From NCBI RefSeq assembly GCF_900105685.1, contig NZ_LT629781.1, positions 3,646,611-3,710,610 on the forward strand: a stretch of 64,000 nt of DNA, in the 5' to 3' direction. Below the pieces are notes generated by a model. That model was given only the letters and a program-made list of their open reading frames with translations, did no database searches and had not been told where the DNA came from. The DNA comes from Verrucomicrobium sp. GAS474. Its GTDB lineage: Bacteria; Verrucomicrobiota; Verrucomicrobiia; Methylacidiphilales; GAS474. Shown here in pieces: positions 15,929-39,546 of this stretch (position 1 is its first letter; every line of letters starts with the position of its first letter). The position numbers and the translations under genes were made by a program.

Positions 15929-16729
15929 ATGACCGAGCCGCTCGAAACTCCCCAGCCCCTCCCGCCTTCCGCGCCGAAGGAAAAAGCGAAGGGGCTCTTC
16001 GGCTGGATCGTCGCCCTCGGCATCATGGCCTTGAAGTACGGCTTCCTCGTCTTGAAGTCGCTCAAGACGAGCCTCTCGATGCTCCTCATGATCTGGGTCT
16101 ACTCGTGGCTCTACGGATGGCGCTTCGCGGCGGGCTTCGTCGGCCTCCTCTTCGTCCACGAGATGGGCCATGTCGTCGCCGCGAAGTGGCTCGGGCTGCC
16201 CGTCAGCGCCCCCCTCTTCATTCCCTTCGTCGGCGCCTCGATCACGATGAAGGAACATCCCCGGGACGCCTGGACCGAGGCGCTGATGGCCTACGGCGGG
16301 CCGCTGGCGGGCGCGCTCGGCTCGTGGATCGGCTGGGCCGTCGCCCTCTGGCTCGACCTTCCCTGGCTGATGGCCGTCGCCTCGGCGAGCTTCATCCTCA
16401 ACCTCTTCAACCTTATCCCCGTCCCGCCGCTCGACGGCGGGCGGATCTGCGCCGCCGTCTCCCCGTGGTTCTGGTTCGTCGGCCTGCTCCTCCTCGGCGG
16501 GGCGGTCTTCTACTTCCACTCCTGGGGGGCGATCTTCATCGTCCTTCTCGTTCTCTTCTACGCCGTCCCCCGGGTGAAGAAGACGTTCCTCGAACGGGGA
16601 ACCCCGGAAATGGTGGCGTACTACGCGACCCATCCGGGGAAGCGGGTGGCCATGGCTTTGCTTTATCTGGGGCTGATTGCGCTGCTCCTCTTCGGGTATT
16701 GGGATTCCGACATGCGGCTGGGGCAATGA
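15929..16729 (+). CDS. M50 (site-2 protease-like) membrane metalloprotease
   Basis: A 266-residue multi-pass membrane protein. The zinc-binding HEMGH lies in a membrane segment (VGLLFVHEMGHVVAAKWLGL) and the second motif NLIPVPPLDGGR, carrying the third ligand Asp, lies about 90 residues later, exactly as in the FtsH-independent M50 rhomboid-like site-2 proteases. No PDZ domain is present, so this is the short form. The ATG at 15929 is 7 nt after a -10-like TAACCT (15916-15921), but a matching -35 is not clear. The substrate is unknown; such proteases cleave anti-sigma factors or clear membrane peptides. Confidence 0.85.
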   Translation: MTEPLETPQPLPPSAPKEKAKGLFGWIVALGIMALKYGFLVLKSLKTSLSMLLMIWVYSWLYGWRFAAGFVGLLFVHEMGHVVAAKWLGLPVSAPLFIPFVGASITMKEHPRDAWTEALMAYGGPLAGALGSWIGWAVALWLDLPWLMAVASASFILNLFNLIPVPPLDGGRICAAVSPWFWFVGLLLLGGAVFYFHSWGAIFIVLLVLFYAVPRVKKTFLERGTPEMVAYYATHPGKRVAMALLYLGLIALLLFGYWDSDMRLGQ

Positions 16730-16739
16730 ACTTCAGGAT

Positions 16740-17008
16740 GATCCCGGAGGGATCAAAGCCGGTAGCCGGTGGTTGAGCGGAGCGACACCACCGGTACGAC
16801 GCAAATGGAATCGCGCTCCGCCCGCAGGCTCTCTTTCCGGAAAGGCCAAGCCGGAGCGCACTTGCAAGCGGAGCGGCAAGGAGATCGCCCTGGTCGGAAT
16901 CATGAAAAGGCCCTCTTCTTTCCAGGGCGATTTTCCGACCTGGTGCAAACCGGTGGTGTCGGCTCTTGGCCTCAACCACCGGCTACCGGCTTTGACCCCT
17001 TCGGGGTC
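16740..17008 (+). repeat. Inverted-repeat element, family A, copy 1
   Basis: A 269-bp element between convergent genes. Both ends carry the same two hairpins in inverted orientation: GATCCC-GGA-GGGATC (16740-16754) and GACCCC-TTC-GGGGTC (16994-17008), and inside them CCGGTGGT...ACCACCGG (16766-16794 and about 16950-16982). The outer 25 nt after the first hairpin are identical at the two ends once inverted. The interior (about 16800-16945) has another nested stem (TCGCCCTGG with CCAGGGCGA) and no coding potential. A second copy with a different interior is at 39316-39546. MITE-like or REP-like, not assigned to a known family. Confidence 0.85.
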
Positions 17009-39302: not shown

Positions 39303-39315
39303 GCGACGCCTCCTC

Positions 39316-39546
39316 GACCCTGAAAGGGTCGAAGCGATTAGCCGGGGGTCGAGCGCAGCGACACCCCCGGTTTCAGATCGGAAAATTCGCCCCGTCATCA
39401 GGTTGTCCCTTCTTTGATGAAGGCCGGGGCGCACCTCCGACAACCTCTGCGACCCCTGCCGGGGTCGGACCCTTCTCTCACGTTATTCCGGGGGTGTCGG
39501 GCTTTGCCCTCAACCCCCGGCTACCTTCTTTGATCCCTCCGGGATC
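39316..39546 (+). repeat. Inverted-repeat element, family A, copy 2
   Basis: A 231-bp copy of the element at 16740-17008. Ends: GACCC-TGAAA-GGGTC (39316-39330) and GATCCC-TCC-GGGATC (39532-39546); inner hairpins CCGGGGGT...ACCCCCGG at 39442-39470 region (39342-39370) and 39488-39520. Relative to copy 1 both inner stems change GTGG/CCAC to GGGG/CCCC, keeping pairing at both ends. The interior is unrelated to copy 1 and has its own nested stem and a third GACCCC-TGCC-GGGGTC hairpin (39451-39466). Its right end is 19 bp before the metG promoter. Confidence 0.85.

Follow-up and report, generated by a model that had tools for sequence, protein, structure and literature searches.

Two intergenic repeats in the window analysed here are very probably REP-doublet (REPIN/BIME)-type non-autonomous mobile elements, whose ends are predicted strand-specific landing sites for a HUH/Y1 single-stranded DNA (ssDNA) transposase of the IS200/IS605 kind. 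The window is a 64-kb stretch (positions 3646611-3710610) of a Verrucomicrobiota-type genome that consists of a single contig of 3.76 Mb. An initial annotation had described two copies of a MITE-like element with inverted double-hairpin ends, and this observation proved right in its essentials. Copy 1 occupies the interval originally given, whereas copy 2 starts at 39315 instead of 39316 and keeps its end at 39546. Each end consists, from the outside inward, of a small hairpin A, ∼7 nt, a tetranucleotide foot ([T/G]TAG), and an 8-bp hairpin B, and the second end of the element is inverted (Table 1). The foot is GTAG at both ends of copy 1, while copy 2 carries one TTAG and one GTAG. Copy 1 has GTGG/CCAC inner arms and copy 2 GGGG/CCCC, as claimed; these forms would be two subfamilies, and this would explain the agreement of all arms within one copy.

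Table 1. Anatomy of the two elements in the window (window coordinates) and positions of all copies in the genome (genome coordinates)
Feature	Position	Strand	Description
Copy 1	16740..17008	+	full-length non-autonomous element, GTGG subfamily, 269 bp
Copy 1 outer hairpin A	16740..16754	+	GATCCC-GGA-GGGATC, GNA loop
Copy 1 GTAG foot of 5' hairpin B	16762..16765	+	by sequence; consensus of 109 ends
Copy 1 5' hairpin B	16766..16794	+	CCGGTGGT-TGAGCGGAGCGAC-ACCACCGG
Copy 1 internal stem-loop, common to copies	16813..16859	+	GCGCTCCG ... CGGAGCGC
Copy 1 3'-end hairpin B, inverted	16950..16982	-	loop longer than the 5' B loop
Copy 1 3'-end foot	16983..16986	-	CTAC on +, GTAG on -; by sequence
Copy 1 3'-end outer hairpin A	16994..17008	-	GACCCC-GAA-GGGGTC on - strand; self-paired, unlike 5' A
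Copy 2	39315..39546	+	full-length non-autonomous element, GGGG subfamily
Copy 2 outer hairpin A	39315..39331	+	CGACCCT-GAA-AGGGTCG
Copy 2 TTAG foot of 5' hairpin B	39338..39341	+	by sequence
Copy 2 5' hairpin B	39342..39370	+	CCGGGGGT-CGAGCGCAGCGAC-ACCCCCGG
Copy 2 internal stem-loop, common to copies	39388..39431	+	CGCCCCG ... CGGGGCG
Copy 2 internal A-like hairpin	39450..39467	+	CGACCCC-TGCC-GGGGTCG
Copy 2 3'-end hairpin B, inverted	39488..39520	-	longer loop
Copy 2 3'-end foot	39521..39524	-	CTAC on +; by sequence
Copy 2 3'-end outer hairpin A	39532..39546	-	GATCCC-GGA-GGGATC on - strand
Full-length copies, genome positions	869503, 900694, 1340118, 3374133, 3663350 (copy 1), 3685922 (copy 2)		BLAST + covariance model
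Partial copies, genome positions	221671, 2099943, 2275261, 2809792, 3345266		BLAST + covariance model

When the whole genome was searched by BLAST, with each of the two copies as query, and with a covariance model built from the end, ∼11 loci of the family emerged, of which six are full-length and five partial. The covariance model alone returned 19 ends, so the possibility raised at the outset that these two loci are the only copies does not hold. Nearly all copies begin a short way downstream of a stop codon. Two of the partial copies (2099943 and 2809792) consist of a single hairpin with a foot on either side, a "double foot" form that could come from a central deletion of an inverted dimer (Quentin et al., PMC6006769). 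The interiors had been called unrelated; however, eight or nine copies contain the stem-loop GCGCYCCG ... CGGRGCGC at an offset from the 5' end that hardly varies (∼110 nt). An alignment of 18 homologous ends of the genus shows that the variable pair of hairpin B is G-C in 11 ends, T-A in seven, and broken in none, as expected from the earlier claim that pairing is kept inside each hairpin. The same alignment contains two further compensatory pairs in hairpin A, with 19 double-change cells as compared to 7.0 in shuffles. Neither a RAYT nor any other Y1 transposase was found in this genome. The best full-length pair is 84% identical, and with the copies diverged to this extent, recent movement in this genome cannot be shown from them. 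No Rfam family matched at the copies, and a structured-RNA reading was therefore set aside. The family consists of non-coding and probably immobile DNA elements.

A transposase-bearing form of the element is present in a congener, G002 (MAG I3b_bin-317), which encodes two intact Y1 tnpA genes of 148 aa each inside the same ends as those of the window copies. On contig C392 the order is A, TTAG/GTAG, B, A-like hairpin, tnpA, A-like hairpin, B', CTA(A/C), A'; these A-like hairpins beside tnpA occupy places that correspond to the internal A-like hairpin of copy 2. On contig C251, a complete non-autonomous copy comes immediately after the half that bears tnpA. Since the window genome has no transposase and its congener has tnpA inside the same ends, the window copies are best read as enzyme-less non-autonomous derivatives. 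The G002 transposase matches Pfam Y1_Tnp (E 5e-23), its nearest PDB chains are the TnpA proteins of ISDra2 and IS608, and it scores above the cut-off of the IS200-type NCBIfam model NF033573. Against the NCBIfam model REP_Tyr_transpos it reaches 21-23 bits, which is below the cut-off of 80. The HUH histidines (DH[IV]H), the WQ motif, and Y---Q-EHH with its conserved Tyr (YI..Q.EHH) are invariant across six relatives, and the RAYT class 2 signature Y---NP is absent. By its motifs (DH[IV]H, WQ, and Y---Q--HH) and its length of ∼148 aa, the features used for this assignment, the transposase would belong to TnpA-Y1 subclass 1.2. This subclass was described mainly from Cyanobacteria and Bacteroidetes with no REP given (Quentin et al. 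2018, PMC6006769). The REP scan in that study demanded GTAG or GTGG as the foot, and the commonest foot found here is TTAG, which accounts in part for the ends having been missed.

Comparison of the congeners bears on whether the element has moved. The genes that flank nine copies were located in G001 and/or G002, and the element is beside none of them. G001 (95% complete) contains neither the element nor tnpA, and at the places in the window genome orthologous to the two G002 tnpA sites the insertion is absent. The empty-site comparison suggested by the initial annotation thus yielded absence of the element beside the checked congener genes. None of the sites compared, namely the flanks of the nine copies in the two congeners, the two G002 tnpA sites in the window genome, and the Methylobacter copies, was a clean empty site showing the exact ends; at the G001 and G002 flanks the neighbouring genes differ, and the exact ends are therefore not readable. 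Methylobacter G063 has tnpA, and its copies at separate sites match one another at 182/184 and 224/229 positions. Presence and absence, together with these near-identical copies, suggest mobility of the element. The reading as MITE-like elements with locally folding ends is supported by the dispersed family, by the element-free congener flanks, and by the same ends around a relative's transposase gene. The best two-flank Methylobacter case, in an interrupted transposase gene, was rejected as a clean junction as it lies within a further palindrome. Several elements of G063 (L233, L234, L224, and L230) are situated within a further palindromic repeat, ...TCGTTCCCACGC ... GCGTGGGAACG..., which suggests that they have inserted into a different repeat family or are nested with it. 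In a second genome (L221, G062:C135), a transposase-type gene is apparently interrupted by an insert that has its own inverted repeats and a copy of the element, that is, by nested mobile elements.

The ends are not confined to this genus. A genome-wide scan returned 80 related tnpA loci from many phyla, picked as the best matches to one TnpA. The inverted-repeat score between the flanks of one locus had a median of 50 as compared to 15 for mismatched pairs of loci. An end finder that takes TAG and then a stem of 7 or more pairs succeeded at both flanks of 48/73 related loci, a fraction that, because the loci are phylogenetically related and chosen as best matches to one TnpA, does not estimate the whole subclass. 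The same finder detected both flanks in 0/51 displaced windows, in 0-1/73 shuffles, and in 0/11 loci of other Y1 transposases in the relatives. One upstream match (L129) was judged spurious and dropped, which left 47 elements for the comparison of ends. Among the 109 transposase-flanking ends, the foot is TTAG in 68 and GTAG in 33, and a hairpin A of at least 5 bp precedes the foot in 98 (5.3 in shuffles). These foot-hairpin ends are spread throughout the transposase tree and occur in Verrucomicrobiota, Planctomycetota, Methylobacter, Acidobacteriota, and one Bacteroidota plasmid. The latter, a Persicobacter plasmid outside the scanned set (L259:700-1320), encodes an IS200/IS605-type tnpA whose product is 34% identical to TnpA, with [A/T]TAG-CGATGGGT...ACCCATCG at both ends, so that the rule reaches the Bacteroidota. 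Such ends were not found at the tnpA locus of Bernardetia (L258). A second group of these same transposases (L098, L076, and L095, from the relatives G048 and G042) has ends of the form ATAG/CTCAG + CCCAGGGT-GGCGC..GCGCC-ACCCTGGG, again with outer and inner A-like hairpins.

Ends and tnpA also co-occur in 60 relatives. Genomes were counted as transposase-positive above 75 bits, a threshold slightly higher than the best IS200-type score, and ends were present in 8/10 of these as compared to 7/50 of the others (Fisher p 9e-5, kinship ignored). Two draft genomes, G020 and G054, contain 15 and 18 ends with no detected transposase of this group, and may hold further orphan families.

The hairpins have a defined polarity. 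The A loops read GNA or GNNA in 79/104 cases and never the complement, and GCGNAGC occurs in 42/109 B hairpins with its complement in none. DNA hairpins with GNA loops, such as d(GCGAAGC), are unusually stable. This polarity bears on the reading of the copies as transcription or RNA elements. On that reading, the copies would be retained for gene expression, as bidirectional terminators or as hairpins that stabilise mRNA, and any mobility would belong to the past. Such a role would suit the position of nearly all copies just after a stop codon and the location of copy 1, which lies, as originally noted, between two convergent genes, an M50-type peptidase gene (ending at 16729) and nadA; REPs have, moreover, been reported to influence mRNA stability and termination (PMC6006769). 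However, the loops and feet are oriented by end and not by transcript, so that no single transcript has both ends in the same sense. In addition, the congener orthologues manage without the element, and a scan near copy 2 found no T-run terminator. Upstream of metG it found no sigma-70-type promoter either, which leaves the claim that copy 2 ends 19 bp before the metG promoter unsupported. We therefore regard a function in transcripts as unlikely.

The agreement between the two ends of one element bears on how the ends are read. The 8-nt B stems of the two ends, each found independently, are identical in 36/47 elements as compared to 15.1% between elements, and the mean number of mismatches is 0.26 within an element and 2.10 between elements (permutation p ≤ 1e-4). 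This holds for elements with rare stems as well (17/22 identical at both ends). By contrast, only 8/47 elements have identical B loops at the two ends, and in 10/47 the two loops are of unequal length; the A arms are identical in 18/45 and differ in 27/45, although each A is paired with itself. Covariation counted over 41 distinct stems gave 97.9% paired and 81 double changes as compared to 17, a count that is illustrative only because the finder selected hairpins for pairing and a filler loop was used. Free of this bias are three other results, namely how often the finder succeeded relative to its controls, how far the two ends of an element agree, and what the 18 aligned homologous ends of the genus show.

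Three readings of the matching ends had been left open, namely local folding, pairing of the ends with each other, and homogenisation by mobility. That A is self-paired and yet differs between the ends favours local folding, and that the B loops differ where the B stems agree disfavours the other two as the main cause. Pairing between the ends would make the element one long hairpin, as a cruciform or RNA duplex, with end-to-end complementarity under selection. Both whole copies do fold as ssDNA into a long hairpin (z -9.8 for copy 1 and -7.7 for copy 2, with 0/200 equally stable shuffles for either), and REPINs have been proposed to function in this way (PMC3116915). Isolated single ends of both copies also form local folds (z -3.3 to -4.2). 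However, the B loops of copy 1 are unequal in length, and the differences in B loops and A arms across the elements compared run against this reading, which we consider quite improbable. If the inverted repeats within a copy recombined or converted one another, with no transposase recognising them, this would explain why stems within a copy agree; the idea is very hard to sustain, however, as conversion would also even out the loops and A hairpins, and independent stem types track the transposase copy that they flank across phyla. Neither end-to-end pairing nor homogenisation predicts agreement of the B stems with differing loops and A arms. Therefore, selection acts on each hairpin and on the sequence of the B stem, as expected with one enzyme reading both ends.

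TnpA-REP and IS200/IS605 enzymes bind folded ssDNA in a strand-specific manner, and the foot helps to choose the cleavage site. By analogy, TnpA would bind hairpin B, make its cut close to the foot, and transfer the DNA that lies between the two ends. Binding and cleavage of the hairpins would take place on DNA exposed as a single strand, such as at the replication fork, and the B stem may be the specificity tag of each transposase lineage. The copies described here could have been placed by an enzyme that has since been lost or was supplied in trans. With the enzyme gone and the copies diverged, those in the window are probably relics that would no longer move. Some observations speak against this reading. 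The ends are inverted, so each strand presents a foot-hairpin at one end only, unlike in IS200/IS605, where both ends present it, and some draft genomes (G020 and G054) have many ends with no transposase of the group detected.

More broadly, we give about even weight to the proposal that subclass 1.2 is a widespread REPtron-like system between IS200/IS605 and RAYT/REP, in which each transposase lineage would have its own 8-bp stem as an address tag, identical in both inverted double-hairpin ends, and would mobilise miniature elements that bear this tag. The stem alphabet comprises ∼20 types matched to sequenced enzymes. If the proposal is true, the recognition code of an ssDNA transposase would be readable from sequence by way of these ∼20 stem-enzyme pairs, and two odd repeats would become part of a general rule. 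Judged against the open-access literature, the predicted hairpin ends in several phyla are new for a subclass published without REP. The recognition of hairpins by an ssDNA transposase and the descent relation of REPs and IS200 elements can thus now be put to the test.

Several known systems resemble the elements described here. IS200/IS605 elements (IS608 and ISDra2) and their derived MITEs also have a HUH/Y1 transposase, hairpin ends, and a tetranucleotide at the foot. However, the ends found here are inverted with two hairpins each, whereas a classical IS200 has one hairpin per end, both in the same sense, and no tnpB was noticed here. TIRtrons (TIRYT, Di Nocera et al. 2013, PMC3733652), most examples of which are subclass 2.1 (PMC6006769), consist of a RAYT-like gene bounded by inverted repeats that are long and in some cases double-palindromic; these repeats can form small dispersed families. 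Long inverted repeats are likewise found here, as the own-flank median of 50 against 15 between loci indicates; however, most descriptions of the TIRs treat them as unrelated to REPs, whereas the ends here have a TAG foot. Published TnpA-Y1 subclass 1.2 (PMC6006769) shares DH[IV]H, WQ, Y---Q--HH, 148 aa, a low copy number, and no adjacent tnpB noticed, but was reported without REP, in contrast to the foot-hairpins at both flanks in 48/73 loci. The REPIN/BIME system with RAYT (PMC3116915, PMC6006769, PMC8266576) has in common with our elements two mutually inverted hairpins that have a tetranucleotide at the foot and are separated by a spacer, an intergenic and dispersed distribution, and compensatory changes. 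As in a REPtron, the hairpins flank a Y1 transposase gene, here in the congener G002 and not in the window genome. The transposase, however, reads Y---Q--HH where RAYT class 2 reads Y---NP, and the foot is mostly TTAG (68/109, with GTAG in 33/109) where that of REPINs is GT[AG]G. The elements also differ in having two hairpins per end, a spacer of ∼150 bp, few copies, and no transposase left in this genome. Thus, we describe them as REPIN-like in their working and, because the transposase lacks the class 2 signature, do not file them as RAYT REPINs.
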